25,553 nt of DNA, taken from a virus. Position numbers and translations under genes: made by a program. The DNA is taken from IMG/VR virus record IMGVR_UViG_3300038682_000006, positions 1 to 25,553 of that record; one strand, 5' to 3'. How positions within the stretch are numbered: position 1 is the stretch's first letter; each line of letters begins with the position of its first letter. The notes under the pieces are model-generated. The model saw only the letters and a list, made by a program, of their open reading frames with translations, was not told where the DNA came from and searched no databases. This document shows, in pieces, positions 2,003 to 24,395 of the stretch.

Positions 2003-2481
2003 TGAGCGCTCAAACTTCATATGAAATCAAGCAACCTAAAGCCTATGCGGGTTTGGTCTACGCTCAAGCTCCGCACGATATTGTTTCACGTGACGTTGAA
2101 ACAGTAGCCGGAATTGGTTTTGGTGTTGTCGTTAGTCGTGGTACTGACAAAGAACGTCAAGTGGTAGCTGGAGGTACTGATTTCTTAGGTATCACCATTC
2201 GCTCCCTGGATAAAGAAGGTGCTGCGAACACCGGAGCTATTCAGTGGAATGAAAAAGAAGCCGCTGGCATCCTACGTGACGGTTACATCTGGGCGACTTG
2301 TCCTTCAGGTTGTAATCCAGGTGATCAAGTAAACTATGTCAATGCGACTGGTGTTCTTGATTCGGGCGCTGCTGTAGCTGGTGAGACTCAGCTAGACGGA
2401 GCTCAATGGGAGACTGTTGCCGCCGCTGGTGAGCTGGCAGTTATTCGTATCGACTCTTCAGCAACCACTGCTGGCGCATAA
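2002..2481 (+). CDS. Capsid decoration / structural cement protein
   Basis: This is a 159-residue small, Gly/Ala/Thr-rich, beta-predicted protein between protease and major capsid genes, the usual place for a head-stabilising protein. Recognisable features are the early Y-A-G-L-V-Y segment, G-V-V-V-S-R-G and a central G-I-T-I-R-S motif, followed by G-Y-I-W-A and G-D-Q-V-N-Y. This resembles the DUF2190/Gp24-like cement proteins that bind the outside of the capsid shell. There is no signal peptide or membrane segment. A GGAGG ribosome site lies at the end of the upstream gene. Family assignment is by general resemblance and position, so the exact family is less sure than the role. Confidence 0.7.
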   Translation: MSAQTSYEIKQPKAYAGLVYAQAPHDIVSRDVETVAGIGFGVVVSRGTDKERQVVAGGTDFLGITIRSLDKEGAANTGAIQWNEKEAAGILRDGYIWATCPSGCNPGDQVNYVNATGVLDSGAAVAGETQLDGAQWETVAAAGELAVIRIDSSATTAGA

Positions 2482-2495
2482 GGGAGAACTGAATA

Positions 2496-3539
2496 ATGAA
2501 AAAATTTACTCTTCGTGACGGTTCTACCCTTGCTTTTGACGGCATGATCGGTACTGTAACCGCTAAAGATGGCAAACAAGTTCAACTGGACGGTGCTGTC
2601 GTAACTGCTTTGAATAACGGTATTGTCGATGCTGACGGTGCGTTCTTCTTCCAGCGACAGTTGGAGCTTATCAAGGCTCGTAGTTATGATGTTCGTTATG
2701 CAGAACTGAAGGCTCGTATGCTGTTCCCTGTTTCCAATGAAGGTGGTCCAGGTATTACCTCTATCACTTATCGTACCTACGACCAATCAGGTGCGGCTAA
2801 AATTATCAACGCTTATGCTGATGATTTGCCTCGTGCTGACGTTGCAGGTAAGGAAACAACCATTCCGGTTCGTTCTGTAGGTATTTCATACGGGTATAAC
2901 CTAGATGAAATTCAAGCCTCTCAGTTGACTGGTGCTGCTCTTGATCAGCGTCGTGCTAATGCTGCTCGTCGTTCCAACGAACAAGTGGTCAACGATGTAT
3001 CGTTCTTTGGTGACGCTACTAGCGGTCTTCCAGGCTTGTTTAGCAACCCTAACATTCCTACAGGCGCGGTAGTCAATCCAGGTGCTGGTACAGAGTGGGT
3101 GAACAAAACTCCTGACGAAATTTTGTTTGACGTCAATGATTTGTTTGCTGACATTTTTGAAACCACTAAGATGGTTGAGCAGGGTAATACTTTGCTTCTT
3201 CCACCTAGTCAGTGGTCTTACATTATGTCCACCCCACGTTCTTCTAACAGCGATACAACCATTGCTCAGTATCTGGTGCAGAACAGCCCGTACCTGAACA
3301 GCATGGAAGATATCATTCCTGTTAATGAATGTGCTGCTGCGAACAACCCTTTGCTTGCTGCTGACGCTATGGTTGCTTATGACCGTAACCCAGACAAGCT
3401 TCAGCTTGAGATTCCTGTAGAATTGGAAATGCTTCCTGTTCAGCAGAAGAACCTTGAGTTTGTTGTTCCTGGACGTTCACGCTTGGGTGGTCTGAATATT
3501 TACTACCCTCTTTCACTAGCTATCGCAACGGGGATCTAA
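2496..3539 (+). CDS. Major capsid protein (DUF2184 type)
   Basis: This 347-residue protein forms the icosahedral shell. An N-terminal region of about 60 residues is followed by F-F-x-R-Q-L-E-x-I-K-A-R-S-Y-D-V, then a long segment with I-T-Y-R-T-Y-D, A-D-D-L-P-R-A-D-V, and V-N-D-V-S-F-F-G-D (about 165-173), which recur in DUF2184 coat proteins of HK97-like fold. The C-terminal P-V-E-L-E-M-L-P-V-Q-Q-K-N-L-E-F-V-V-P-G-R and the G-G-L-N-I-Y-Y-P-L-S ending are typical of the same family. Ribosome site GGGAG precedes the ATG. Translation of the next gene begins two bases after the stop, suggesting coupling. Confidence 0.88.
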   Translation: MKKFTLRDGSTLAFDGMIGTVTAKDGKQVQLDGAVVTALNNGIVDADGAFFFQRQLELIKARSYDVRYAELKARMLFPVSNEGGPGITSITYRTYDQSGAAKIINAYADDLPRADVAGKETTIPVRSVGISYGYNLDEIQASQLTGAALDQRRANAARRSNEQVVNDVSFFGDATSGLPGLFSNPNIPTGAVVNPGAGTEWVNKTPDEILFDVNDLFADIFETTKMVEQGNTLLLPPSQWSYIMSTPRSSNSDTTIAQYLVQNSPYLNSMEDIIPVNECAAANNPLLAADAMVAYDRNPDKLQLEIPVELEMLPVQQKNLEFVVPGRSRLGGLNIYYPLSLAIATGI

Positions 3540-3541
3540 TC

Positions 3542-3991
3542 ATGGCCGGGATTATGAACCACACTGCACGTCAATTTAATTTGAAGTGCATCACAAAAGG
3601 TGGGAGCCGTGTAGTAGTTCGCATTGCTCCTGGATTTAACGTAGTTGAAGATGCTCACTGGCAAGCTTTCGTATCTAAAGACGGTAAGAAAGTAGACCCT
3701 TATGTTGCTAGTCTTAAAAAGAAAGGCGACATTGAGTTTGGTTCTAAGATTGATGACATGGAGCTTGAAATGGCTCCTGACACTCAAGCTAAGTCCAAAT
3801 CTGAACCTATGGCTAAGCTGAAAGAAGAAGCTGATAAAGCTAAAGAAGAAGCTGAGGCTAATAAGGACATTGCTGAAAAAGCTAAAGCCGAGGCTGAAAA
3901 AGCTAAGGAAGAAGCTAAGGAAGCTAAAGCCAAAGCTGAAAAAGCCGAACTGGAACTTGCAGAACTTAAAAAGTCTACAGCTTCCAAATAA
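3542..3991 (+). CDS. Small head-module protein with C-terminal Ala/Lys/Glu coiled coil
   Basis: The first 80 or so residues form a compact domain (T-A-R-Q-F-N-L-K, V-V-V-R-I-A-P-G-F-N-V-V-E-D-A-H-W, D-P-Y-V-A-S-L-K-K-K-G-D-I) of a kind often found directly after phage major capsid genes. I know no assigned function. From about residue 88 to 145 there is a nearly pure Ala/Lys/Glu heptad repeat, a predicted long coiled coil. The repeat makes the DNA monotonous and yields a long Ser/Ala-rich shadow frame on the other strand. It ends the capsid block: the next feature is a terminator. A role as scaffold accessory or capsid-binding protein is possible but unproven. Confidence 0.7.
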   Translation: MAGIMNHTARQFNLKCITKGGSRVVVRIAPGFNVVEDAHWQAFVSKDGKKVDPYVASLKKKGDIEFGSKIDDMELEMAPDTQAKSKSEPMAKLKEEADKAKEEAEANKDIAEKAKAEAEKAKEEAKEAKAKAEKAELELAELKKSTASK

Positions 3992-3997
3992 TAAATT

Positions 3998-4024
3998 GCC
4001 TCGGTTTCGGCCGAGGCTCTTTTA
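3998..4024 (+). terminator. Intrinsic terminator after the capsid block
   Basis: A 7-bp GC-rich perfect stem (GCCTCGG 3998-4004, CCGAGGC 4011-4017) with loop TTTCGG is followed by TCTTTT. It lies six bases after the stop of the coiled-coil gene, as expected for a rho-independent terminator. It probably makes capsid transcripts more abundant than those of the connector genes downstream. Confidence 0.8.
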
Positions 4025-4058
4025 AATTGTGCATTTCTATGAGATGCACAATTTAAAA
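4020..4058 (+). repeat. 15-bp perfect inverted repeat upstream of the coiled-coil/membrane gene
   Basis: Arms TTTTAAATTGTGCAT (4020-4034) and ATGCACAATTTAAAA (4044-4058) are perfect complements around a 9-base spacer. The left arm overlaps the T-run of the preceding terminator, so only one structure can form at a time. The repeat ends just before the ribosome site GGGG and the ATG at 4072. It could be a protein-binding operator, an RNA hairpin setting transcript ends, or a boundary scar of an inserted gene. Confidence 0.7.
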
Positions 4059-4071
4059 GGGGATAATCCAA

Positions 4072-4503
4072 ATGAGTGAAAGGCCGGATTTAAGAGGTTT
4101 ATCTAATGTGAACGAATTGTCAGAGACAAGGTTATGGAAGACCTTAGATTCCATAAGCGATAGACTGACAAGTATCGAAAGACAACTCGGTGAAGTTGTT
4201 CGCTTAGAAGAACGTGTTAATAATCATGAACAAGCCCTTTCCCGTTACGGTAATAGGTTGGATACCCATGATAGAAGATTGCATGAGACAGAACTTTGGC
4301 AAGCGAGCTATGGTGATAAATCATCAGTAGAACGCTTAGTAACAAACGTTCAAGAAGAAGTAGGAAGTCTTAAGAAAAAGGTTGATCAGCTTGAATCTAG
4401 TAAAGATATTATCGCTGGTCAGAGAGACATAGGTAAAGAAGTATTGAAATGGTTAGCGGGTATATTGGGCGCAACTCTAGTATATATGCTTACTAAAGGA
4501 TAA
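4072..4503 (+). CDS. Coiled-coil protein with C-terminal membrane anchor (XhlA-like layout)
   Basis: The 143 residues comprise a charged N-terminus, long coiled-coil segments (about 20-65 and 85-115), and one C-terminal transmembrane helix (about 124-140, V-L-K-W-L-A-G-I-L-G-A-T-L-V-Y-M-L) followed by T-K-G. The plan of coiled coil plus C-terminal anchor resembles the XhlA family of phage lysis-associated membrane proteins, but that family is shorter and the resemblance may only be architectural. Its position between the capsid and connector genes, behind a terminator and inverted repeat, is unlike a lysis gene. Function unknown. Ribosome site GGGG precedes the ATG. Confidence 0.6.
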   Translation: MSERPDLRGLSNVNELSETRLWKTLDSISDRLTSIERQLGEVVRLEERVNNHEQALSRYGNRLDTHDRRLHETELWQASYGDKSSVERLVTNVQEEVGSLKKKVDQLESSKDIIAGQRDIGKEVLKWLAGILGATLVYMLTKG

Positions 4504-6240: not shown

Positions 6241-7719
6241 ATGACAATCCCAGTTTCTAGTGTGGTTAATGTCAGCATCGCAATCGGTGCTACATTTCCA
6301 GCGCGAGCAGGGTTCGGCACTCTTAACATCGTAACTAAGGAAACTGGTGTTATTGGGATTGCTGAGCGTATTCGTTCGTATCAAAACCTAGATGGAGTGA
6401 CGGCTGACTGGCCTGCTGATTCTGAAGTGGTTAAGGCCGCTACAGCTTATTTCAGCCAGCAACCTAAACCCACTTCTCTAAGAGTATCCACTCGTTATGA
6501 AGCTGATCAGTCAGCTCAATTACGAGGCGGTGCTGTAACTGATGCGACGGCCTTACTACTTGTTGCAGATGGTAGCTTTGCTATCAGTATTGACGGTGAT
6601 GCTCAAGACATCACGGGTCTTGACTTTACTGATACAGAAACAACCCTTGATGATATTGCGGCTTCTATCCAAGCTGCTCTTCAAGCGGTTGCTACTGGTG
6701 GCTATACCGCTGCTACTTGTGTTCATGACGGAACTCGTTTCTTTATTGAATCAGGTACTACAGGTGTGTCTTCAACCATTAGTTTCTTGACTCCGGTAAG
6801 TCCTGCTACTGGTACTGATATTTCATCATTGCTGCAAATGCAACAAGGTGAAGGTACTAAGGTAGACGGTATCGCAGCAGAAACAATCACAGCTTCTTTA
6901 AACGCTATTCAGAACATCAATCCGGATTGGTACGGCCTAATGTTCACTAAAGAAGTTCGTGACCTAGTGACAATCAATTCTGAAAATGCTGTTGAAGCGG
7001 CGGCAGACTGGTGTGAAGCAAGGGTTAAAACATTCGTCAATACTTCTAATGATTTGGACGTGCTTGACAGTGTTACTACCAATGACATCGCATCTATATT
7101 GAAAGCTAAGAACTTACGTCGAACCATGACCACTTATAGTTCTTTCCCCAATCAGTATCCTTCAGGTAGCATTGTAGGTAGAGCCTTCACTGTAAACTTT
7201 AATCAACCCGACAGCACCATTACGTTGAAGTTCAAACAGATGCCTGGAATTACCGTTGAGCAATTGACGCAAAGCCAGAAAGCTGTTCTAGATAGTAAGC
7301 GAGCCAATGCTCTGATTGAAGTAGGTTCTAGCGATATGTTTGCTGAATCCTTCATGGCAAATGGTACTTTCTTTGATGAAGTACATGGTGTTGACTGGTT
7401 GACAAACGCTATTGAAACTAACGTGTTTGGATATCTACTAACTCGTACCACCAAAGTTCCCTACACTAATAAAGGTGTAGCAGCTATTGAGCAACAGGTT
7501 ATTAACGCTCTTGATGAGGCGGTTCGTAACGGCTTAATCGCTCCAGGCGAAACTATTGATGGTGAGTTCTTACCTAACGGTTATAAGACAGTAGTTATTC
7601 CTGTTGAAGACATTAACCAATCTGACAAAGAAGCTCGTAACTATCCGGGACTCAGCTTTGTGGTATTGGGGGCGGGAGCTATTCATAGCGCCCAAATCAA
7701 CGGCATATTTGAGCGATAA
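6241..7719 (+). CDS. Contractile tail sheath protein (DUF3383 family)
   Basis: This 492-residue protein forms the contractile sheath. The N-terminus (V-S-S-V-V-N-V-S-I, then A-G-F-G-T-L-N-I-V-T) and the R-I-R-S-Y-x-N-L-D-G-V and A-A-T-A-Y-F-S-Q-Q-P-K-P motifs are DUF3383 signatures. The middle has a beta-rich insertion (about 95-205). The C-terminal domain shows T-V-N-F-N-Q-P-D-S-T-I-T-L-K-F-K-Q-M-P-G-I and a final I-H-S-A-x-I-N-G-I-F-E-R, the sheath handshake region in this family. It is followed 11 bases later by the tube gene, with AAGGAG at 7718-7723 as that gene's ribosome site. Confidence 0.9.
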   Translation: MTIPVSSVVNVSIAIGATFPARAGFGTLNIVTKETGVIGIAERIRSYQNLDGVTADWPADSEVVKAATAYFSQQPKPTSLRVSTRYEADQSAQLRGGAVTDATALLLVADGSFAISIDGDAQDITGLDFTDTETTLDDIAASIQAALQAVATGGYTAATCVHDGTRFFIESGTTGVSSTISFLTPVSPATGTDISSLLQMQQGEGTKVDGIAAETITASLNAIQNINPDWYGLMFTKEVRDLVTINSENAVEAAADWCEARVKTFVNTSNDLDVLDSVTTNDIASILKAKNLRRTMTTYSSFPNQYPSGSIVGRAFTVNFNQPDSTITLKFKQMPGITVEQLTQSQKAVLDSKRANALIEVGSSDMFAESFMANGTFFDEVHGVDWLTNAIETNVFGYLLTRTTKVPYTNKGVAAIEQQVINALDEAVRNGLIAPGETIDGEFLPNGYKTVVIPVEDINQSDKEARNYPGLSFVVLGAGAIHSAQINGIFER

Positions 7720-7730
7720 GGAGATAAACA

Positions 7731-8153
7731 ATGAAAGAGTATAGCTTTTTAGACACCTTACTGCTTGTGAATGGTGTTGAAATTGGGGGTTACGATGAGG
7801 GTGACGATACTATTAACTTAGATCGCCTAAACGATTCGGCAGCTCATAAGATCGGTACTGATGGGGAAATGACTGTTTCCATCAGTGCTGACCGTTCAGG
7901 TTCAGTAACATTCCGCTTGATGCAAACTTCAGATTCTAACTCATATTTGTCAGGTCTGATCAATGCTCAAGAGAACGGGGCGTTCGTACCTATTTTTGTA
8001 CAATTTAAAGATACCCGAGGTAATGATTTAGGTTCGGGTACTCAAGGATATATAACTCGCCCTGCTGGTATGACTCGCGGAACTAACGCTAACGGGCAAG
8101 AGTGGGTTATTGTTGTTGAGAGACTGGATTTGCTTCACTTAGGCGGAGCATAA
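7731..8153 (+). CDS. Tail tube protein (DUF3277-like)
   Basis: The 140 residues begin K-E-Y-S-F-L-D, continue with an acidic stretch (Y-D-E-G-D-D-T-I-N), then I-G-T-D-G-E-M-T-V-S-I-S-A-D-R-S-G-S-V-T-F-R-L-M-Q-T-S and end W-V-I-V-V-E-R-L-D. This pattern is typical of DUF3277 tube proteins paired with DUF3383 sheaths. The product stacks as hexamer rings inside the sheath. It has a strong ribosome site (AAGGAGATAAACA-ATG). A long structured RNA region follows it before the chaperone gene, perhaps to protect this abundantly needed message. Confidence 0.88.
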   Translation: MKEYSFLDTLLLVNGVEIGGYDEGDDTINLDRLNDSAAHKIGTDGEMTVSISADRSGSVTFRLMQTSDSNSYLSGLINAQENGAFVPIFVQFKDTRGNDLGSGTQGYITRPAGMTRGTNANGQEWVIVVERLDLLHLGGA

Positions 8154-8158
8154 AGAGT

Positions 8159-8234
8159 TCCTTGAGGAGGGTCACACTGTCTTTATGATCCCGGCCTAAT
8201 TTAGACAGCCTCCTCAAGGACACCTTGGCCGGAT
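8159..8234 (+). promoter_or_regulatory. Long hairpin with possible pseudoknot between tube and chaperone genes
   Basis: Arms TCCTTGAGGAGG (8159-8170) and CCTCCTCAAGGA (8209-8220) pair perfectly over 12 bp. The stem continues inward with CTGTCT (8177-8182) and AGACAG (8203-8208), leaving a six-base one-sided bulge. The loop carries CCGGCC (8191-8196), fully complementary to GGCCGG (8227-8232) six bases past the stem, so an H-type pseudoknot can be drawn. No T-run follows, so it does not look like an intrinsic terminator. A role in mRNA end protection, RNase processing or translational control is inferred. Confidence 0.7.
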
Positions 8235-8242
8235 TAACTTAT

Positions 8243-8263
8243 ATAAACTGGACCGGAGTTTAT
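8243..8263 (+). promoter_or_regulatory. Hairpin occluding the chaperone ribosome site
   Basis: ATAAACT (8243-8249) and AGTTTAT (8257-8263) are a perfect 7-bp inverted repeat with loop GGACCGG. The Shine-Dalgarno GGAG (8255-8258) lies partly in the loop and partly in the right arm, and the chaperone ATG begins two bases after the stem (8265). This would weaken chaperone translation relative to the tube. Confidence 0.6.
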
Positions 8264-8264
8264 T

Positions 8265-8702
8265 ATGGCTTGTAGAACAGAAACAAAACCTATTGGTGAA
8301 ATTGAATACAGCGTCACTCAGTGGCCTGCTGAAAAATCCATGCTTATGAAGTTCCGATTGGCTAAAGTCTTTGGGGCTACCATAACAAGCATCGTAGCAA
8401 ATCTACCTGATTCTAAGAAGAATACTGATCAAGATGATGCGAAAGCATTGTCGGAAGGGTTTTCAAAAATGTTTGAAAGCAACTCCCCTGAAGAAATCGT
8501 ATCTTTGATGAAACAATGCGTGGTAGGTGTAGCTAGAGATGGAACTCGTATTACTGACACATCGTTTAACGAACTGTTCAGTGGCGACGACCTAATCGAG
8601 GTATATAAAATTTTCATGTTCGTGTTACAGGTGAACTATGGAAATTTGCTCAAAGGCCAGTTGGCAGAACGCCTTCTGGCCAGAGCCAAGGTAAACTTAT
8701 AG
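8265..8702 (+). CDS. Tail assembly chaperone, short (G-type) product
   Basis: This 145-residue mainly helical protein lies between tube and tape measure, the constant position of tail assembly chaperones. It starts with a beta-like segment (I-G-E-I-E-Y-S-V-T-Q-W-P-A), then helices including S-L-M-K-Q-C-V, and ends V-N-Y-G-N-L-L-K-G-Q-L-A-E-R-L-L-A-R-A-K-V-N-L. The chaperone coats the tape measure during tail assembly; lambda gpG is the model. The last 20 codons overlap the second, -1 frame of the chaperone, and the frameshift signal lies at codons 127-128. Most ribosomes should make this short form. Confidence 0.85.
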   Translation: MACRTETKPIGEIEYSVTQWPAEKSMLMKFRLAKVFGATITSIVANLPDSKKNTDQDDAKALSEGFSKMFESNSPEEIVSLMKQCVVGVARDGTRITDTSFNELFSGDDLIEVYKIFMFVLQVNYGNLLKGQLAERLLARAKVNL

Positions 8703-8881
8703 ATGAAAAGAAGTTCCCCAATGTTAATTCTTTTCTACATAGGCCGATAATGTGCGAACCGCCTATGTGCTCGTTAAAAGAATTACAAGACGGAACTTAT
8801 TCTATAGAAGATTTACATATGATGAATGAGTTATTGGATTTAAAAATGTCAATGGCTCCAAAACCTAAAGGTAAAAAGTAA
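8265..8881 (+). CDS. Tail assembly chaperone, frameshifted long (GT-type) product
   Basis: After reading codons 1-128 in frame and slipping back one base at 8648, ribosomes would add 77 residues and stop at TAA 8879-8881, giving a 205-residue fusion. The added part begins A-Q-R-P-V-G-R-T-P-S and contains R-P-I-M-C-E-P-P-M-C-S-L-K-E-L-Q-D-G-T-Y-S-I and a helix E-D-L-H-M-M-N-E-L-L-D-L, ending K-P-K-G-K-K. It has no ATG with a convincing ribosome site, so it probably exists only as a fusion. Its stop overlaps the tape measure ATG (TAATG). The T domain is expected to recruit the tube to the tape measure. Confidence 0.78.
8642..8681 (+). promoter_or_regulatory. -1 programmed ribosomal frameshift signal
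   Basis: The heptamer A-AAT-TTG (8642-8648) fits the slippery pattern X-XXY-YYZ and is in register with the chaperone codons (Asn127-Leu128). After a six-base spacer comes a stem GGCCAG (8655-8660)/CTGGCC (8676-8681), with a TT/TT internal loop, a second stem GGC (8663-8665)/GCC (8671-8673) and an AGAAC loop. The -1 frame is open from 8609 to 8878, so slippage here yields a clean fusion. This is the same genetic layout as lambda G/GT. Confidence 0.82.
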
Positions 8882-10245
8882 TGGCTATAATCGATGAATT
8901 GCTAGTCGGCTTAGGGTTTAAATATGACCCTAAAGAGATGTCGCAATTTAAAGACGATGTAGCCAAATCTACAAAGCTTGTTAAAGATTTGGCTAGAGCT
9001 GCTGTGACTGGGGCGATAGCCATTACAGGTTTAACCGTAGCTTCCACCCGAGCCTCTGATGAACAGGGTAAATTGGCAGATGAAATAGGCGACACTGTAG
9101 AAAATGTCGACGCTTTGCAATTTGCTCTACAGAGGTCAGGAGGTACTGCTGATGGTATGACTTCTTCACTGAGACAACTTTCCATAAGAGCGGCTGAGGC
9201 TGCTCGGGGAGTTGGTTCAGGTGTTGAAGCCTTCGGCCTGTTAGGTATATCAGCAACAGATGTTCAAGGAAATCTAAAATCTTCCAGTGATTTAATCCTA
9301 GAAATATCACAACGCTTCCAAGGACTAAGTAAATCTCAGCAAATTGAATTAGCTGATAAACTTGGTATCCGTGACTCCATACGTCTACTGCAACAAGGTC
9401 CGAGCGCTATTAGAGAATTAACTGCTGAAGCTATGGCTTTAGGGGTTACTACTGAAGAAGACGCCGCGATAGCAGCCGAATTTCAAGATGGTCTAACAGA
9501 TCTATGGAGAATAACAAAACAAATAACTCGTTCCCTATCTAAAGAGTTAGCTCCTGTTATGAAGGATCTAATCACCGACTTTACAGATTGGTGGAAAGTA
9601 AATAGGGAAATCATAGAATTAAAACTACCTGAATGGATTGACAAATTTACAATGTCTGTCAAGCTTCTCACAATAGCCGTGGGAGGGTTTTTAGCATTCA
9701 GGTTAGCTGGTCACCTAATAACACTTATAAGTCTTCTAAAGGGTGTTACGGTAGCCACATTAGCAGCAAATGCAGCAGCCTTTTTATTACCCGCTTTAAT
9801 AGCCTCAGCAGCAGTAGCATTCGTAGCTCTGGCTGAAGACGCTAAGGTATTCTTTGAAGGCGGGGATTCCTTCCTTGGAGATATGATTAAAAGGTTCCCA
9901 GAGTGGGAAAATGCTATCACCAATGTTGCAGCCGCTTTAGCAGTGGTATGGGACTTAACTAAAATGATATTTGAAGGTTGGTCTGAACTGCTAGATTTAG
10001 ATGTGGGTCAATTCTTTAAAGACTTACCTGGATTTTTAGGTGATGTAACTGGTTTAGTTGAAGTGGGTGGCGGAGGTGTTATTCCAGAACTAGGTCAAAG
10101 TATTTCTAACACAGCTTCTACAGTTGTTGACAAGATTGACATAGTTGTTCAGGGAGGCGCAGACACTGCTGAAAATATAGCAAATGCTGTATTCAATGTG
10201 TTTCAGCAAACTTCACAAGATTTAAATAGCGCGGTGGATCAATAA
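8881..10245 (+). CDS. Tape measure protein
   Basis: This 454-residue, mostly helical protein sets tail length. The N-terminal 60 residues (L-V-G-L-G-F-K-Y-D-P-K-E-M-S-Q-F-K-D-D-V) and the D-E-I-G-D-T-V-E-N-V-D-A-L-Q-F-A-L-Q-R-S-G-G motif are typical of tape measures in this myovirus type. Hydrophobic helices at about 260-275, 285-312 and 345-360 could act at the host inner membrane on DNA entry. A Gly-rich hinge lies near 392-398. It is short for a tape measure: at about 0.15 nm per residue it implies a tail of roughly 65-70 nm. It overlaps the preceding frameshift product and the following gene by a base or two. Confidence 0.85.
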   Translation: MAIIDELLVGLGFKYDPKEMSQFKDDVAKSTKLVKDLARAAVTGAIAITGLTVASTRASDEQGKLADEIGDTVENVDALQFALQRSGGTADGMTSSLRQLSIRAAEAARGVGSGVEAFGLLGISATDVQGNLKSSSDLILEISQRFQGLSKSQQIELADKLGIRDSIRLLQQGPSAIRELTAEAMALGVTTEEDAAIAAEFQDGLTDLWRITKQITRSLSKELAPVMKDLITDFTDWWKVNREIIELKLPEWIDKFTMSVKLLTIAVGGFLAFRLAGHLITLISLLKGVTVATLAANAAAFLLPALIASAAVAFVALAEDAKVFFEGGDSFLGDMIKRFPEWENAITNVAAALAVVWDLTKMIFEGWSELLDLDVGQFFKDLPGFLGDVTGLVEVGGGGVIPELGQSISNTASTVVDKIDIVVQGGADTAENIANAVFNVFQQTSQDLNSAVDQ

Positions 10246-17815: not shown

Positions 17816-18285
17816 TGAATTATATTAAAATCGCTATCGTGATAGCTGCTTTCCTTGCTGGATGGGCTGTTAATGGTTGGCGTATTGGTGAAAACATAGC
17901 TGAAGCAGAAGCTCAGCGAGCAAGAGATACCATAGAGATAGAAAGACTTAATACAGAAAAGGCTGACGCTATCTCTGCTCTACACGCTGCTAAAGCTGCT
18001 GCTCAAGTAGTTAAAACACGAACTATAACTAAAGAGGTCATAAAATATGTTCAAAGCGATGACGCTGGTAAGTGTGATCTTTCTGATGACTGGGTGCGGA
18101 TCCACAATGATTCAACGGGAGTGTCCTCAGATACCGAAACCACCGCCGGAACTGATGACACCTCCGGAAGAACTAAAACAGATGTAGACGCATTAGTAAC
18201 AGTCACTGACAACTATGCTATCTGCCGAGTTAACGCTGCTAGATTAGAAGCCTTGCAAAAATGGGCTGATAGCATAAGTGATTAA
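17812..18285 (+). CDS. Rz-like inner-membrane spanin subunit
   Basis: The gene starts at an ATGA overlap with the holin (a second ATG follows immediately at 17815). The 157-residue product has an N-terminal transmembrane helix (about 5-20) and then a periplasmic helical region (A-E-A-E-A-Q-R-A-R-D-T-I-E-I-E-R-L) as in Rz. A Ser/Thr/Asp-rich low-complexity stretch (about 98-125) corresponds exactly to the place where the Rz1-like frame lies, so it may be shaped by the overlapping gene. It ends C-R-V-N-A-A-R-L-E-A-L-Q-K-W. It would join the Rz1 lipoprotein to bridge and fuse inner and outer membranes in the final step of lysis. Confidence 0.8.
   Translation: MMNYIKIAIVIAAFLAGWAVNGWRIGENIAEAEAQRARDTIEIERLNTEKADAISALHAAKAAAQVVKTRTITKEVIKYVQSDDAGKCDLSDDWVRIHNDSTGVSSDTETTAGTDDTSGRTKTDVDALVTVTDNYAICRVNAARLEALQKWADSISD
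18047..18187 (+). CDS. Rz1-like outer-membrane spanin lipoprotein, embedded in Rz
   Basis: In the +1 frame inside the Rz gene an ATG at 18047, with GAGG at 18034-18037 nine bases upstream, opens 46 codons. The product has a short basic start (M-F-K-A-M), a hydrophobic stretch (T-L-V-S-V-I-F-L-M-T) and a lipobox L-M-T-G-C with Cys17. The mature 30 residues are Pro-rich (C-P-Q-I-P-K-P-P-P-E, T-P-P-E-E), as in lambda Rz1. It stops with TAG at 18185-18187, well before the Rz stop. Too short for ordinary gene callers, but its position, ribosome site, lipobox and Pro content agree. Confidence 0.87.
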   Translation: MFKAMTLVSVIFLMTGCGSTMIQRECPQIPKPPPELMTPPEELKQM

Positions 18286-19715
18286 GCTAAAGACCTTCTG
18301 TATTTCTTCAAAGCTGTTCTGAGGTCATGTTGCTCCCTTGCCCGTTCACCCAAACGGAGCATCATGGCCTCATCTGTAGTACGTTCAGCTATTAAGTGAT
18401 GTACTCTAACTCTATTACCTTTCACACCTTGTCTATAGATACGACGGAAGAATTGGTCGTATAACTCTAAGTCCCAAGTAAGGCTGAAAAAGCAAACATC
18501 ATTCCCGCATTCTTGCAGGTTTAGCCCGTGACCCATACTCGCAGGGTGTCCCAATAATATCGGCAGTTTACCAGCGTTCCAATCGGCTTCTATAGCCTTT
18601 GCTTGGCTTGGTGACACACCGCTCCCAATATACGGTACATCCTTCCCTAGAAGCTTTCTGAGAGCCTTTAAATCGTGCTTGTAATGGTAAGCAATAAGCA
18701 GCGGCTTACCGTTAAGCTCGTCTATTAAATCTCGCAAGGCTTCAATCTTAGCCTTGTGAACATAGATGGCTTTTCTTGTACGTTTGAAAGCCCTGATTTC
18801 ATCTTCGTCAAGACCTTCAGGCACATCTTCGTAGACATGACCGTTAGCTATCTGATGACATTTAGCACTTGCTTGAGCGGCTGCTTCTGCTGATACTTCC
18901 GAACCATCTAATTCTATAAAGAATTCCTTTTCCATCTTCTTATAGTGGGACATAGCTTTAGCAGGTAGCTCAACCCGTATATCGTTGAACAACAGCTCAG
19001 GCATATCCAGATAATCATCTGCGGACATTTCAAGAACCATTGGCGCAACCAACTCATGGATCTTTTCTGCTGAGAAATCTTTTATTTCCCAACTATATTT
19101 ATTCCAGTCGTTAGATTGGAAATACTTCTTACGGAACTCATAGTAGTTTCTACCGAGCGCCTTACCTTCGTCAAGGACATACATTTGCGACCATAGGTCA
19201 AGTAAGCTCTTTGGAGCTGGTGTTCCTGTCATTATATGACGACGTTTAAACAGGGGAAGCATATCGCAGACAAAACCAAATCGGGTAGAATCATGGGATT
19301 TGAATTTGGTACTTTCATCAATCCATAAACAGTTGAACGGGCATTTCTTACCCTCCTTTAAACCAGCCAGTAATTCGCCGTGAAGCCATTCAAGCCCTTC
19401 AGGATTTATAATATATAGGTCTTTCTGTTTACCCCATATAGAGGGTTTAGTGTCTTCATGAAGAATAGTGTGGTTAAGGTTCTTGAAGTTACCCCACTTA
19501 TCTATCTCTCCAGGCCAAACACTATAGACAACCCGTAAAGGTGCAATCATCAACACACCTTTAATCTGTTCAGCGTATTTCAATATCTTGATAGCGGCTA
19601 GGCTGGTTGACGTCTTACCAAGACCAGGATCTAGGAATAGTCCTGAACGAGGGTTAGACAGCAAGAATGAAATAGCTGTCCTTTGATAAGCGTGGGGCTT
19701 CCAAACTTTAGTCAT
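18282..19715 (-). CDS. SNF2-type superfamily 2 helicase
   Basis: The 477-residue product (start ATG at 19715, with GAGG upstream, overlapping the end of the dimer glycosylase gene) has Walker A D-P-G-L-G-K-T (29-35), a Walker B variant W-I-D-E-S (131-135), motif III T-G-T-P-A-P-K (163-169), and C-terminal G-H-G-L-N-L-Q and Q-F-F-R-R-I-Y-R-Q-G (421-430), the arginine-finger motif VI. It is a compact form lacking the large inserts of chromatin remodellers, typical of phage SNF2 proteins that act on DNA in replication, repair or recombination. The VRR-NUC gene two genes upstream is a common phage partner. The stop shares TTAA with the convergent Rz gene. An ATG at 19733 is an alternative start. 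Confidence 0.9.
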   Translation of the reverse strand: MTKVWKPHAYQRTAISFLLSNPRSGLFLDPGLGKTSTSLAAIKILKYAEQIKGVLMIAPLRVVYSVWPGEIDKWGNFKNLNHTILHEDTKPSIWGKQKDLYIINPEGLEWLHGELLAGLKEGKKCPFNCLWIDESTKFKSHDSTRFGFVCDMLPLFKRRHIMTGTPAPKSLLDLWSQMYVLDEGKALGRNYYEFRKKYFQSNDWNKYSWEIKDFSAEKIHELVAPMVLEMSADDYLDMPELLFNDIRVELPAKAMSHYKKMEKEFFIELDGSEVSAEAAAQASAKCHQIANGHVYEDVPEGLDEDEIRAFKRTRKAIYVHKAKIEALRDLIDELNGKPLLIAYHYKHDLKALRKLLGKDVPYIGSGVSPSQAKAIEADWNAGKLPILLGHPASMGHGLNLQECGNDVCFFSLTWDLELYDQFFRRIYRQGVKGNRVRVHHLIAERTTDEAMMLRLGERAREQHDLRTALKKYRRSLA

Positions 19716-20124
19716 ACATTTCCTCAAGAACATTATCTAACTTTGAACGCTTGCAGATTCTAACCATGTTAAGGTAGATTTCCTCAGGAGTAGGAGTATA
19801 GGATATATTCCAGTCACCACTGATAGAATATGAATTATGAACTACAGAACGCCATAACAGTTCGTCAAGATCATAACCTCTGGAATAGATTAATTCTTTG
19901 CGAATGCGCTCATAGCGTAAACGTAACCAGCCGATTTTATTGTAGAAGAATTTGACGTGACCTCTACCTAAGACATACAGGTTAGGGATATCAACGTCAT
20001 CTGGAGCTTTACCCTGTTCTTGCAGTTTTAGAACTGCTGTAAAGATACGAGGTAGTTCACGGTACTCAGCCATCAGATGCTTATCTGTGAGGTGAGATGG
20101 ATCAACTAAATTTATGCGTGTCAT
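19708..20124 (-). CDS. denV: Pyrimidine-dimer DNA glycosylase (T4 DenV/endonuclease V-like)
   Basis: The 138-residue product matches T4 DenV in length and in its opening: M-T-R-I-N-L, then H-L-M-A-E-Y-R-E-L-P-R (16-26). Thr2, which becomes the N-terminal nucleophile after Met removal, and Glu23, the catalytic acid, are both present, as are Arg22 and Arg26. G-R-G-H-V-K-F-F-Y-N-K and L-R-L-R-Y-E-R follow. The enzyme would cut cyclobutane pyrimidine dimers and the abasic product, starting UV repair. The C-terminal third differs from T4. Its ATG is the last part of a hairpin arm (see the hairpin entry). The stop lies within the helicase start. Confidence 0.87.
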   Translation of the reverse strand: MTRINLVDPSHLTDKHLMAEYRELPRIFTAVLKLQEQGKAPDDVDIPNLYVLGRGHVKFFYNKIGWLRLRYERIRKELIYSRGYDLDELLWRSVVHNSYSISGDWNISYTPTPEEIYLNMVRICKRSKLDNVLEEMYD

Positions 20125-20162
20125 ACTGAGTTCCTGTTTAACTGTTAGGTGAACTCAGTATG
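20122..20162 (-). promoter_or_regulatory. Hairpin that includes the start codon of the dimer glycosylase
   Basis: CATACTGAGTTC (20122-20133) and GAACTCAGTATG (20151-20162) are a perfect 12-bp inverted repeat with a 17-base spacer. Read on the minus strand, the 3' arm ends with the ATG start codon at 20124-20122, and the likely ribosome site (GGAA) lies at the loop-arm junction. Formation of the RNA hairpin would block initiation. No T-run follows, so it is not an obvious terminator of the upstream nuclease gene. Confidence 0.65.
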
Positions 20163-20168
20163 GCTTAG

Positions 20169-20513
20169 TTATTCGTCAAAAGCAAGGAAATTGTCTAGGT
20201 GGGATTCTGCTTGACCTTTGGCGTCGCATACATAGTATTCAAAGCCAAACGATTCAAGCATCTTACGAACAAGAACCTGAGCTGGTGAGGGCTTTTTACC
20301 TTCACGTTTAAACTCTATGAAGAATATCCGACCACCTTGGCAAATAATAGTTCTGTCAGGAAATCCCTTCTTATTAAGGAATATGAGTTTTAGAGCTTTG
20401 CAACCAAGTTTATCAGCATATTTACAAAAAGCCTTTTCAATGTCTACTTCTTTTACTTCGGCTCTTTTAGCTTTGCGCTTGGTAGCTCTTGATAAGAATT
20501 CATTAGTATCCAT
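20169..20513 (-). CDS. VRR-NUC domain nuclease
   Basis: This 114-residue protein has the compact VRR-NUC (PD-(D/E)XK) core: Glu26 in the first helix, G-F-P-D-R (50-54, Asp53), I-E-F-K-R (66-70, Glu67 and Lys69), then K-P-S-P-A-Q with Gln79. It is a stand-alone phage-type enzyme expected to cut branched or flapped DNA. SNF2 helicases and VRR-NUC nucleases frequently co-occur in phages and may act together. The N-terminus is strongly basic. Oddly, the ATG at 20513 lies five bases after a terminator's T-run and has no visible Shine-Dalgarno, and no other in-frame start is nearby. Confidence 0.85.
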   Translation of the reverse strand: MDTNEFLSRATKRKAKRAEVKEVDIEKAFCKYADKLGCKALKLIFLNKKGFPDRTIICQGGRIFFIEFKREGKKPSPAQVLVRKMLESFGFEYYVCDAKGQAESHLDNFLAFDE

Positions 20514-20518
20514 AACGC

Positions 20519-20545
20519 AAAAAGGCCGAGCGATGCTCAGCCTTT
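20519..20545 (-). terminator. Intrinsic terminator between the coiled-coil gene and VRR-NUC
   Basis: On the minus strand AAAGGCTGAGC (20545-20535) and GCTCGGCCTTT (20531-20521) form 11 base pairs (one T-G wobble) with an ATC loop, followed by further T residues (T-run 20523-20519). It lies 21 bases past the coiled-coil gene stop. It would reduce transcription into the nuclease, glycosylase and helicase genes. Seen from the other strand, it is weaker. Confidence 0.75.
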
Positions 20546-20566
20546 CCGGTGCTATGTGAGAGACCC

Positions 20567-20926
20567 TTACAGGTCGTCACCGGCTTCTTCAGTTTCAGAC
20601 TCAGCTTCAACTTCAGGATCTTTAGAAGCATCTGCAAACTTGCGGATAGTGCCAGCCAGTTCAGAAGCAACTTCCATAATGTTATCAGCCAGTTGCTCAA
20701 CTTCTTCAACCGTACCTTTTTTAAAGGTCGGTAGAACAGTAGCAGTGAGGTCGCGAAGATTACCTTTGATTTCACGAGCTTGCTTACGCGCTTCAGACTT
20801 AGCTGTGCGAGCTTGCTTACGCTCTTCTTTAGTAGCGTCAAGCTCTTCACGAAGTGCTTTTTGCTTCTCAGCCAATTCTTTTTTCTGAGCGTTGATTTTC
20901 TTCAACTCTTCCATTTTGTTTGACAT
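20567..20926 (-). CDS. Small acidic-tailed coiled-coil protein, unknown function
   Basis: The start chosen is ATG at 20926, with AGGTG six bases upstream; a GTG at 20935 lies within that ribosome site. The 119 residues form a highly charged helical coiled coil (about 1-60, Lys/Glu/Ala/Gln/Arg-rich), a short hydrophobic helix region (about 75-100, with L-A-D-N-I-M-E-V-A-S-E-L-A), and an acidic tail (E-V-E-A-E-S-E-T-E-E-A-G-D-D-L). It could be a DNA mimic, a polymerase accessory or an assembly factor; nothing decisive is seen. It follows the polymerase by about 95 bases, a gap that could hold its own promoter. A terminator follows it. Confidence 0.7.
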   Translation of the reverse strand: MSNKMEELKKINAQKKELAEKQKALREELDATKEERKQARTAKSEARKQAREIKGNLRDLTATVLPTFKKGTVEEVEQLADNIMEVASELAGTIRKFADASKDPEVEAESETEEAGDDL

Positions 20927-21020
20927 AGTGTTCACCTATTGTTTGATTAATGATCCCAGCCGTTTAGCTGTTGGAGTAAGTATGGGGCGAACCGTTTTAA
21001 AAGTAAACCCCAAATAAAGA

Positions 21021-22895
21021 TTATTTCCATCCCGTGTCTTTTAATATGCGTTTCGCCTCTCTAATATACCAAGGGAAATCCACGTCATCAGGAAACTTAT
21101 TTGGTAAATCCATAAGAGGAACACCGTTATCTGACTTTGGAACCTTGTTCCCATTAGTATTATAGTATATAGCGTCAAGCTCATACGCCCCGTAATACCA
21201 CCTAATAGCCTTACCAATAACCTCGCCGTCCTTTACAGCACCCCCATTCACGGTTCTAAGCGTTAAAAACTTGGTGATGTCACTACATGCTCGGATAGTT
21301 TCCTCAACGGGCTTACCAGTCTGTAGAAACGCTTTAGCGGCCTCAGTACAAATATCATTACTAGGGTTACTTCTAAGGCTGTAAAAGTGCTCACGCTGGT
21401 CAGAATAGGCTCCCTTACCTTTAGTGCTATTTTCTTTAATAGCTATATAGTTATTAACGTCACGACTATTAAGACTTATATAGTCGGCACCTTCCATCTC
21501 ATAATCGGTTTCAAATTCCCAATCACTAACGATAGATTGAGCGGTAGTTTCTTGCTCTTTAGTCATCTTAGTAACGATACCATCTGTATTCGCACTTACG
21601 ACAGAAATACCCGCTGCTTCCAAGCGTTCAATCAACATGAGTAAGCTGAGCTGACCTGTCACTGTTACTTGCATCATAAGATCAGGAGAATACAAGCAAG
21701 ACCATTTGGAACCAAACTTACCAAAGGAACCGTTGATGGTAATTTTAAGACTCTCATTAACTACTTTGTTTCCTTCACGCTTAGCTTTTAAACGTCGCTC
21801 AACAATAGAGTTATAGATGTCTAGGAACGGCTCACCGATATGTTTTGGAAATAGCCTGTTATTCAATATTATTCGCGGGTAATAACTAGCCACATCGTAA
21901 TCGCGCAATATACCGTCTTCATTGGTATGTCGTGTTGATTTTTCACAACTATGAAGACCGCCAGTGCCGACAGTGTATTTAGTATTACCAATAACGAATT
22001 GAAGTTTTTTCTTACTATCTGGAAATTCACCTTTGTTCTTACCTGACTTTTTACGGTCAGATTCAACTATTTCAAAGTTGAATTCTACATGACCACTATT
22101 GCCGACAACGAATGGGCGAGTGGTATATTGTCTAAATACGTCTTGAAGTATTTCACTTTCAAATACCAAGTTATCAGGAGCTTGGTAATAGTATTCAGTA
22201 CCGACAGCAACTTTAGGTCGCTTAGGAATGAATCCATATTTTTCTTCCATTTCCTTCTTAATAACTGCTTCGGCAATTTGAGCATCAGACTTAGAACGAA
22301 CGTCAACACCGTACTCATCACTCATATTGGAACGTAGATCTAATTCGGATTCCAATTGTTTAAACAGTAATTCAGTATCCTCATTATCTATCCCACAATA
22401 TTCTATCAACGCAGGTCTATCAGAATCAGCTATAGTAGCATCGTGATGAATAGGCAAGTCTTTAAGGCGAGGAGCGTGTATTCTACCGGCATAGATTTTA
22501 AGAGTTGCTTTCAGTGGTGCTACTTCTATCAAATCAATATGGTCTATTTTCAATGCTGCGAAACCACATTGTTTTCTAACTTGCCAAGGCTGTAACCCTT
22601 TGACACCTTTAGCTTTATCTTCATCTGAAGGAATTATCAGGTTGTTTATTTTCTTCAATGTCTCGTTATTGAAACCAGCACAAGCCGCCTCAATCATAAC
22701 AATATCGTACTTGTTGCCGTTGAAAGTTATGATTGTATATTTATTAAGAATATGTAGAACGTTCTTAATATTCAGCGGTGAGTCATTAAACTTTTCAAAG
22801 TAGATAACTTTACCATCTGTCACTCTCCTGAACATTATCAAGAGATAGTTGCGAAAACACTCTATATCGCATGTTACTAATTTATCGTATTTCAT
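21021..22895 (-). CDS. Family B DNA polymerase with 3'-5' exonuclease
   Basis: ATG at 22895 with GGAG upstream is favoured over a TTG four codons earlier. The 624-residue product shows the exonuclease motifs C-D-I-E (Asp10, Glu12), F-N-G-N-K-Y-D (Asn59, Asp64) and Y-C-G-I-D (Tyr166, Asp170). Polymerase motif A is D-Y-D-V-A-S-Y-Y-P (Asp334), motif B is K-I-T-I-N-G-S-F-G (384-392), and motif C is A-N-T-D-G (435-439), where the usual D-T-D-S is replaced by N-T-D-G. Asp438 is the expected catalytic residue. A spacer of about 160 residues lies between exonuclease and motif A, with G-T-G-G-L-H-S just before A. This is the replicative polymerase of the phage. It has the size of compact phage enzymes. 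Confidence 0.88.
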   Translation of the reverse strand: MKYDKLVTCDIECFRNYLLIMFRRVTDGKVIYFEKFNDSPLNIKNVLHILNKYTIITFNGNKYDIVMIEAACAGFNNETLKKINNLIIPSDEDKAKGVKGLQPWQVRKQCGFAALKIDHIDLIEVAPLKATLKIYAGRIHAPRLKDLPIHHDATIADSDRPALIEYCGIDNEDTELLFKQLESELDLRSNMSDEYGVDVRSKSDAQIAEAVIKKEMEEKYGFIPKRPKVAVGTEYYYQAPDNLVFESEILQDVFRQYTTRPFVVGNSGHVEFNFEIVESDRKKSGKNKGEFPDSKKKLQFVIGNTKYTVGTGGLHSCEKSTRHTNEDGILRDYDVASYYPRIILNNRLFPKHIGEPFLDIYNSIVERRLKAKREGNKVVNESLKITINGSFGKFGSKWSCLYSPDLMMQVTVTGQLSLLMLIERLEAAGISVVSANTDGIVTKMTKEQETTAQSIVSDWEFETDYEMEGADYISLNSRDVNNYIAIKENSTKGKGAYSDQREHFYSLRSNPSNDICTEAAKAFLQTGKPVEETIRACSDITKFLTLRTVNGGAVKDGEVIGKAIRWYYGAYELDAIYYNTNGNKVPKSDNGVPLMDLPNKFPDDVDFPWYIREAKRILKDTGWK

Positions 22896-22904
22896 ATTAA
22901 GCTC

Positions 22905-22931
22905 CAAAGAACAAAGGCGACCGAAGCCGCC
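22905..22931 (-). terminator. UUCG-capped intrinsic terminator between dCTP deaminase and polymerase
   Basis: On the minus strand GGCGGC (22931-22926), TTCG, GTCGCC (22921-22916) forms a six-base-pair stem (one G-U wobble) capped by the very stable C-UUCG-G tetraloop, then TTTGTTCTTT. It follows the deaminase stop at 22938 and precedes the polymerase ribosome site by a few bases. It probably attenuates read-through from the nucleotide genes into the polymerase. Confidence 0.75.
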
Positions 22932-22937
22932 TAACCA

Positions 22938-23483
22938 TTATCGCACACCCTTATTCTCAGTTACAGTATCTTGGTCATTGTATTGACCTTTGACAGCGTA
23001 GCTATGTTCTTCAGGAACAGGTTCACACTCCCAGAACACCATTTGCCCTATCTTCATTCCAGGTTTAATTAGAAGAATATGGTTCTGAGTTACGTTCTTA
23101 AGCTCAAGTGTCAACTTGGAATTATTCCACCCTGGATCACACCATCCTGCGAGCATGTGTTGTAAGCCAGAACGAGCCAATGAACTTTTCAACTTATACT
23201 CAGCCGCGACTGTGTTTGGTAAATTGAAAGTTTCATTACTACTAGCTAAAATAAACTGACCAGGATAAAGACGGAAGCCTTTTTCGTTAATACGATGACG
23301 ACGTAATTCCAAAGACTGCTTAGCCTGTAAGTCAACAACATATTGCTGGGACATAGGTTTCTCAATAAGAATATCGTCACCAATGGTAATATCAATACTA
23401 GCTCCGCTAATATGATCCATTGGAGCGGTAATAATACCAGCTTCAACAAGATTGATAAGTGAGTTGTAAGATAGCAATGACAT
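22938..23483 (-). CDS. dcd: dCTP deaminase
   Basis: The ATG at 23483, with GAGG five bases upstream, lies right after the previous stop and is chosen over longer in-frame starts. The 181 residues show I-S-G-A-S-I-D-I-T-I-G-D (25-36), P-G-Q-F-I-L-A (74-80), S-L-A-R-S-G (101-106), A-G-W-C-D-P-G-W (112-119) and L-T-L-E-L-K-N (124-130; Glu127 is the predicted catalytic base). A C-terminal Y-N-D-Q-D motif resembles the nucleotide-closing segment. The enzyme deaminates dCTP to dUTP, feeding dUMP to the thymidylate-synthase-like enzyme of this operon. Some family members are bifunctional and give dUMP directly; this cannot be told here. Confidence 0.87.
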   Translation of the reverse strand: MSLLSYNSLINLVEAGIITAPMDHISGASIDITIGDDILIEKPMSQQYVVDLQAKQSLELRRHRINEKGFRLYPGQFILASSNETFNLPNTVAAEYKLKSSLARSGLQHMLAGWCDPGWNNSKLTLELKNVTQNHILLIKPGMKIGQMVFWECEPVPEEHSYAVKGQYNDQDTVTENKGVR

Positions 23484-23484
23484 A

Positions 23485-23889
23485 TTAACCTCGGATGTAA
23501 TTTTTGTCAGGATCAACATAGTTTGCAGTCGGACCGCATTCAGCTTCGTCAATCATTTCACAAATCAGCTTTTGAGCCGCTTCATACTCGCCGGAACAAA
23601 TAAGAACAATAAGCTCACGATCATCCTTATGTTCGAACTGACTAGCAAACTTTTCAACCTGCTCTTCAATGGTTTCCAATCCTGGAGGCCAAACATCACG
23701 GTCTTCAGCCTTGGAAATATAATGGGCGATTTTACGCAAGTCCTGAAGACCGTTTTTATCACGCCAGCGGGAATACTTGGTGGCACAACCTAACAGATAA
23801 TGAAGGTTTGCATCGCACACAAAATCCCAATGCTGATAATTGCGCTTGTTGTAGTGGTCGCCACCAATTTGATATTCGTTTACGTCCAT
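23485..23889 (-). CDS. DUF3310 family protein
   Basis: The N-terminal 65 residues fit DUF3310 closely: I-G-G-D-H-Y (8-13), Y-Q-H-W-D-F (18-23), L-L-G-C-A-T-K-Y-x-x-R-W-R-D-K-N-G (32-47), D-L-R-K-I-A-H-Y-I (50-58). This family is very common in phage nucleotide-metabolism operons; a role linked to nucleotide handling is suspected but its chemistry is not established as far as I know. The last 70 residues are acidic and helical and less conserved. The start ATG overlaps the previous gene's stop (TAATG), with GGAGGAGC upstream. Confidence 0.82.
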   Translation of the reverse strand: MDVNEYQIGGDHYNKRNYQHWDFVCDANLHYLLGCATKYSRWRDKNGLQDLRKIAHYISKAEDRDVWPPGLETIEEQVEKFASQFEHKDDRELIVLICSGEYEAAQKLICEMIDEAECGPTANYVDPDKNYIRG

Positions 23890-24395
23890 TACAGCTCCTC
23901 CATTTCTTGAACCAATGCGTGAAATAATTCACCTGCTTTAGTAAAGTGATTAGAACAAACGACAGTGAAACTATCTTGAAAGAACTCACGCCATTTGCGA
24001 AAAGGTCTCTTGGCGTTTATGTTACCCATACGAACCTGATGAACACAGAACCACATTCCTTCTAGGGTGTCTGCCATTTTAAGAACCATTTGTTCTTCAG
24101 GAGCCAAGTCAAAATGAACGCCGTTTTGTTCCTCCCACCGACGTTCCATCTCATGCAATGTTTTCTTGAGCTCAGGGTTATCCCACTTAACAGGTGCGGG
24201 AATATCGCCAATATAATATTCCGCTGCATCGTGAGTTAGAGCTGCTAGAAGCAATGTTTTAGAACCTTCTGGATAAATGTGCTCAACAATAAGTGCAACG
24301 CCCCATTGATGTTCGGCTGTCTTTTGTTTGTCAATACCAACATGGTTGTGAAAACGAACCACGTCACCGCTATGAAGTATATTTCTTATATTCAT
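23889..24395 (-). CDS. HD-domain 5'-deoxynucleotidase (YfbR-like)
   Basis: The 168-residue HD-domain protein has A-E-H-Q-W-G-V (27-33, His29), T-H-D-A-A-E-Y-Y-I-G-D-I-P-A-P-V-K (54-70, His55-Asp56) and K-M-A-D-T-L-E (106-112, Asp109): the metal ligands H, HD and D are complete. The G-D-I-P-A-P-V-K segment is a YfbR signature. YfbR removes phosphate from deoxynucleoside monophosphates, and phage DatZ, an HD dATP hydrolase, is a close relative. At position 15 Phe replaces the Trp usual in the R-W-x segment. It may adjust nucleotide pools in favour of phage DNA synthesis. Overlaps of one base join it to both neighbours. Confidence 0.82.
   Translation of the reverse strand: MNIRNILHSGDVVRFHNHVGIDKQKTAEHQWGVALIVEHIYPEGSKTLLLAALTHDAAEYYIGDIPAPVKWDNPELKKTLHEMERRWEEQNGVHFDLAPEEQMVLKMADTLEGMWFCVHQVRMGNINAKRPFRKWREFFQDSFTVVCSNHFTKAGELFHALVQEMEEL

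Follow-up and report, generated by a model that had tools for sequence, protein, structure and literature searches.

We analysed a viral stretch of 25,553 nucleotides (IMG/VR record IMGVR_UViG_3300038682_000006, positions 1 to 25,553; hereafter the window) in which a short gene lies between two gaps. Upstream, 111 bases (8154-8264) separate it from the stop of the tail tube gene; downstream, 178 bases without annotation (8703-8880) separate its own stop from the start of the tape measure gene. The question raised by this locus is whether the second gap belongs to the short gene, as an extension reached by a programmed -1 frameshift, and what the first gap contains. A first-pass annotation, made from the letters without database searches, had proposed the frameshift; it overlooked a covarying pseudoknot RNA immediately 5′ of the gene.

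The chaperone gene and its neighbours

The short gene, G (8265-8702, plus strand), encodes a tail assembly chaperone of 145 residues in the zero frame (PF21822 Phage_TAC_15, 8e-20; phrog_1613, 5e-13). On the same strand it is preceded by the genes for the sheath protein of a contractile tail (6241-7719; DUF3383, 2e-90; phrog_205) and the tail tube protein (7731-8153; KPP10_Orf10, 4e-13; phrog_280), and followed by that for a tape measure protein of 454 residues (8881-10245; phrog_8125, 1e-54). With sheath, tube, chaperone and tape measure as neighbours the phage is contractile-tailed by homology, and the profile matches bear out the earlier placing of the frameshift site between tube and tape measure. 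The assignment of G by homology rests on profile matches and on its predicted structure: the AlphaFold model (pLDDT 83) is similar to tail assembly chaperones predicted for phages, that of Moogle included. A PDB fold search with this model gave no significant match, and among solved structures a sequence search found no useful relative of G and none of T, the product of the downstream frame.

Elsewhere in the window (18282-25414, minus strand) genes for a helicase, DNA polymerase, dCTP deaminase and thymidylate synthase face the structural module. A record of 46.7 kb, L001 (IMGVR_UViG_3300038566_000026), has a G identical to that of the window and is probably the same or a very close phage in a longer assembly. 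In L047 (NC_070840.1) the large gene after the chaperone (2159-4141), the expected tape measure, is annotated as an exonuclease, possibly a misannotation.

Evidence for a -1 frameshift in G

Around the proposed slip site G reads ...TAT GGA AAT TTG CTC..., which places the heptamer AAATTTG (8642-8648, plus strand) in the X_XXY_YYZ register of the ORF 8265-8702, as A_AAT_TTG. The -1 frame is open from 8609 to 8878, and its stop (TAA, 8879-8881) has one A in common with the tape measure ATG at 8881 (TAATG). A shift at the heptamer would add 77 codons of this frame (T, 8648-8878, plus strand), and the computed length of the G and T fusion is 205 residues. Heptamer register, open frame, TAATG overlap, fusion length and the 178 unannotated bases all agree with what the first-pass annotation had described.

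T from the window matches the PHROG 4364 profile significantly (phrog_4364, 2e-13) and the Pfam family DUF6889 (PF21829) partially (3e-4; 20.9 bits against a curated cut-off of 23.9). It is homologous in all 29 aligned relatives, every one of which matches phrog_4364 and 24 of which match DUF6889 (E up to 0.01). Its predicted structure is of low confidence (pTM 0.47). Both families are labelled as of unknown function and not as a frameshift-encoded T domain; the simplest reading of the sequence matches is that they would represent the frameshift-encoded C-terminal part of the chaperone. With this identity assigned to a 'domain of unknown function', many annotations in which the extension is missing or is made a separate gene would be corrected.

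Database records leave the T stretch unannotated or give it as a short separate ORF, and the latter practice speaks for T being a gene of its own, with an internal start or re-initiation past the stop of G. We consider this very unlikely. The -1 frame of the window has no ATG, GTG or TTG before 8750, in keeping with the earlier claim that it lacks its own start, and 8750 already lies inside a conserved T motif. The starts annotated in the records vary in place between phages, and a separate gene leaves unexplained the fixed -1 overlap and the hairpin and synonymous constraint in G described below.

We rejected the frequency of the heptamer as evidence, since such sequences are common by chance: the plus strand of the window holds about 75, and codon shuffles place one in register within the overlap 13.6% of the time. 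For the 90-codon open frame the chance is p ~0.003. The case for frameshifting rests on conservation. A search with the G protein found 34 loci in viral contigs; with the -1 extension as query, relatives turned up in 146 phage records. From 22 of these records, together with 80 additional viral loci and 4 bacterial contigs, we obtained 93 distinct readable loci. In all 93 the T frame is open and overlaps the upstream ORF by at least 46 bases, its phase relative to that ORF being -1 each time and in no case +1 or zero; the upstream ORF is recognisably G in 90. Decay or mis-sequencing of a gene in the -1 frame, with an accidental overlap, could appeal to the 14% of shuffles with an in-register heptamer; this idea is refuted by conservation at 93/93 loci, together with a conserved protein sequence, and we assign it a negligible probability.

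Slip sites were assigned in 92 of the loci, L140 being left out as its partner is not G-like; in most we took the first canonical heptamer in the overlap, and in 18 the site was placed by hand via the conserved position of NY.N[LF]/DFF. A canonical X_XXY_YYZ heptamer, mainly AAATTT[GAT] or TTTTTT[CTAG], is present in 84, and the other eight (L025, L029, L031, L043, L045, L096, L113 and L128) retain TTTN (Z_ZZN) there, their P-site codon being imperfect. The first-pass annotation had named stop codons in the -1 frame or the lack of a slippery heptamer in relatives as grounds for dismissing the frameshift; we found no such stops, and the slip site recurs at the homologous position in the alignment of related phages that had been suggested as a check.

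As the first-pass annotation had noted, a two-part stem-loop (8655-8681, plus strand) follows the heptamer after a spacer of 6 nt (8649-8654). Its outer stem, GGCCAG/CTGGCC, has 6 bp (8655-8660/8676-8681) and is followed by a UU/UU internal loop and an inner stem, GGC/GCC, of 3 bp (8663-8665/8671-8673); the minimum free energy is -19.9 kcal/mol (z -3.6). Among 28 distinct sequences, five pairs show changes on both sides, as in the outer stem, where GGCCAG/CTGGCC becomes GGCCAA/TTGGCC in L025 and GGTCAG/CTGACC in L085. The covariation score of 0.165 was reached by 0 of 500 shuffles (mean 0.090), and slid versions of the hairpin scored at most 0.078. As judged from these aligned sequences, the hairpin is a covarying RNA element.

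Furthermore, in 24 relatives codon identity at conserved residues climbs exactly over the heptamer and the hairpin. The peak window is centred at 8661, a height reached in 0 of 5000 permutations, and for the Asn in the heptamer all 253 comparable pairs use AAT, compared with an expected 63%. Part of this constraint comes from dual coding, so that it speaks for the overlap as such in addition to the RNA signal. Neither the covariation of the hairpin nor the synonymous-site test depends on conservation of the T protein.

Slippage of RNA polymerase, rather than of the ribosome, might also give access to the second frame, and runs of at least six T at the site in many relatives could permit it there. 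The window has AAATTT only, with no run longer than three, and a hairpin at a fixed spacer of 6 nt suits ribosomes better; we give polymerase slippage even less credence than a separate T gene. Collectively, the sequence comparisons make it highly probable that this is a lambda-type G/GT frameshifting chaperone gene with two products. The lambda layout in a myovirus, with a heptamer unlike that of lambda, as first proposed, is supported by the homology of G, the 93/93 -1 overlaps and the contractile-tail neighbours.

In the mechanism we propose, most ribosomes would complete G (145 aa). A minority would pause at GGA AAT TTG, held by the hairpin six bases on, and both tRNAs would re-pair one base back (AAT to AAA, TTG to TTT), after which 77 codons of the -1 frame would yield GT (205 aa). 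By analogy with lambda, G may coat the tape measure protein while T recruits tube subunits. Frame, heptamer, hairpin, homology, covariation and the uniqueness of the leader RNA are read from the sequences themselves; the occurrence and rate of shifting and these roles of G and T are, like the regulatory effect of the leader discussed below, what we infer from them.

How efficient the shift might be is suggested by work in E. coli, where UUN heptamers shift best with a final pyrimidine, and A_AAU_UUG belongs to the purine-ending kind that shift less (PMC4066793). A_AAU_UUR does not count among the efficient motifs in E. coli (PMC4066793), a ranking that may not hold for the phage's own host. 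The caution over the final G in the first-pass annotation was apt, UUR shifting less than UUY, and we expect A_AAU_UUG to shift weakly in E. coli. The clade of the window combines A_AAU_UUR with a hairpin, whose z is about -2 to -5.5 in most of the A_AAU_UUN members, whereas Chaseviridae and other phages (L036-L057) mostly have U_UUU_UUC and no predicted downstream hairpin. As a raw difference, median hairpin z is -2.8 for A_AAU_UUN and 0.3 for U_UUU_UU (p 2e-11). On the tree, supported branches offer only four independent contrasts, of which one or two are concordant and none discordant, too few to establish a trade-off between heptamer strength and hairpin. These sequences nevertheless suggest that in the clade of the window a strong hairpin may compensate a weaker slip site.

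The heptamer of lambda is G_GGA_AAG. Frameshifting by -1 in G/GT is the classical case of this phage (PMC5009743), and the window resembles gpG/gpGT in its place between tube and tape measure and in having a short chaperone with a predicted -1 extended form. This form is expected as a small minority product, as in lambda (PMC5009743). Unlike lambda, the window has a contractile tail, the heptamer A_AAU_UUG, a strong covarying hairpin, a T domain that probably belongs to the DUF6889 family and a leader pseudoknot RNA. In 2025 a -1 frameshift (TAC-N/TAC-NC) late in the chaperone gene was reported in Pseudomonas phage Adele (Vandenendeviridae) and in Andersonviridae, with an extension often annotated as a separate hypothetical gene and an invariant slip motif GTTTTT (PMC12846349). 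Adele is related to the phage of the window, and its shift, like the one proposed here, lies close to the end of the chaperone gene; KPP10 has the same gene order as the window and an open -1 frame; unlike the Vandenendeviridae and Andersonviridae sites, that of the window lacks GTTTTT and has AAATTTG and a hairpin instead. Chaseviridae (phiEcoM-GJ1, PP101, Faunus and others) have homologous G and T with a -1 overlap, but differ in their usual U_UUU_UUC without predicted hairpin and in a usually short gap before G. The frameshift is thus a further case of the known G/GT kind, its mechanism being of the textbook and already published for the related Adele; it brings this mechanism to a set of contractile-tailed phages of which most are uncultured.

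A structured leader RNA before G

The 111 bases between the tube stop and the G start fold into a long hairpin, a leader RNA (8160-8219, plus strand) recognised by folding, covariation and a covariance-model match (8160-8267, 81 bits). The RNA spans about 100 nt and has two stacked helices; its apical loop is complementary to a strand lying downstream and, to a lesser degree, to the Shine-Dalgarno site. Helix P1 (8160-8170/8209-8219) and helix P2 (8177-8182/8203-8208, extendable) are separated by a one-sided bulge (8171-8176), and P2 is capped by the apical loop (8183-8202). CCGGCC in this loop (8191-8196) pairs with GGCCGG downstream (copy 1, 8227-8232, plus strand) to form a pseudoknot; GGACCGGAG (copy 2, 8250-8258, plus strand) contains the Shine-Dalgarno site of G and offers the loop a second, weaker partner. 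In relatives the sequences differ but the architecture recurs, with P1 usually of 10-13 bp, P2 of 6-11 bp, a bulge mostly of 5-6 nt on the 5′ side only and a loop usually with CCGGCC. Past the loop follow a short A/U-rich linker, copy 1, the Shine-Dalgarno region (copy 2) and the ATG. A further hairpin, P3, sequestering the Shine-Dalgarno site, was tried as a candidate and rejected as weak (mean z -0.8).

Since a plain MAFFT alignment misaligned the stems, we used a covariance model built from 4 sequences. In the resulting alignment 25 of 27 modelled pairs show two-sided changes, and the covariation score is 0.62, shuffles giving 0.23 and slid partners no more than 0.12; the alignment was fitted to P1 and P2, so that these two helices are favoured. 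The model made no use of the pseudoknot helix; in this helix 84% of cells are paired, and 4 of its 6 pairs have two-sided changes. When 29 leaders were parsed individually, 568 of 572 stem pairs were standard, 41 of them G-U, a descriptive figure as the parser maximises pairing. A structured cis-regulatory RNA is marked by compensatory covariation in non-coding sequence linked to a single gene; this is what we find here, and by these comparisons the leader is almost certainly a real structured RNA.

A scan of 28 whole records found a single plus-strand copy in 18, always at the chaperone gene, and one weak antisense shadow of the palindromic stem; in L024 and L091, missed at the whole-record threshold, the leader was found only weakly in a smaller search. 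It is absent from the Chaseviridae and other distant records tested, which retain the frameshift. Rfam gave no match in the window above the gathering cut-off and none that was meaningful at a relaxed threshold, a strict sequence pattern of the leader matched one viral contig, and the open-licence papers searched hold no report of this RNA. L138 (JALTLI010000139.1), a contig of 43.7 kb from an alphaproteobacterial MAG, has both frameshift site and leader and may be a prophage or a binned phage contig.

The loop matches its own copy 1 better than it does those from other phages (median 20.9 vs 13.6, p 2e-6); the same holds, to a lesser extent, for copy 2 (17.3 vs 13.2, p 0.002); these tests are exploratory, having been devised after the pattern was seen and treating related phages as independent. 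The loop and both copies have changed together in L116, L138, L025, L062 and L085. The predicted energy of the loop is usually greater with copy 1 than with copy 2, the reverse holding in L031, L062, L085, L107 and L138, and pairing with copy 2 is weak where the common core is the self-complementary CCGG.

Possible control of G by the leader

The most natural reading of this arrangement is translational control of G, because the leader abuts and partly complements the ribosome-binding site, and also because terminator-like hairpins occupy the same junction in another clade, as if expression must fall there. We hold it to be fairly probable that the leader controls translation of G. The C-rich loop would pair with copy 1 or with the ribosome-binding site in copy 2, the latter being the weaker partner in most members, and the balance of these pairings might set initiation on G and so lower chaperone output relative to the far more abundant tube protein encoded upstream.

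A transcription terminator, an RNA-processing signal or a site acting at the DNA level (a cruciform or packaging site) would account for the hairpin in another way, and intrinsic-terminator-like hairpins with U tracts do occur at this junction in L120, L125, L127 and L128. The window itself has neither a U tract nor a terminator match, the loop-strand pseudoknot and the 41/572 G-U pairs favour RNA over DNA, and the loop complementarity extends to the Shine-Dalgarno site; we regard these non-translational roles, taken together, as rather unlikely, with some probability left for RNA processing. Within translational control, a more specific proposal sees in the leader a hitherto undescribed RNA family acting as a two-partner pseudoknot switch, the ribosome-binding site being free when the loop holds the decoy strand and masked when the loop pairs with the site. 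This proposal is tentative, and somewhat less probable than the opposite. If it is true, one phage gene would carry two stacked RNA controls, of initiation and of reading frame, which set the stoichiometry of tube, G and GT.

In our judgement the leader counts for more than the frameshift, as a strongly covarying RNA that occurs once per genome, always ahead of the same virion-assembly gene, and has no Rfam match. If it regulates translation, the balancing of tail parts by phages becomes testable with simple reporters.

Two further arrangements were seen before the chaperone gene in relatives. L114, L115, L120, L125, L127 and L128 have, in place of the pseudoknot RNA, hairpins with U runs resembling intrinsic terminators at the junction of tube and chaperone genes. 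In the Shewanella phages L037 and L044, which the leader model does not match, the hairpins near the chaperone's ribosome-binding site are long and of a different kind.
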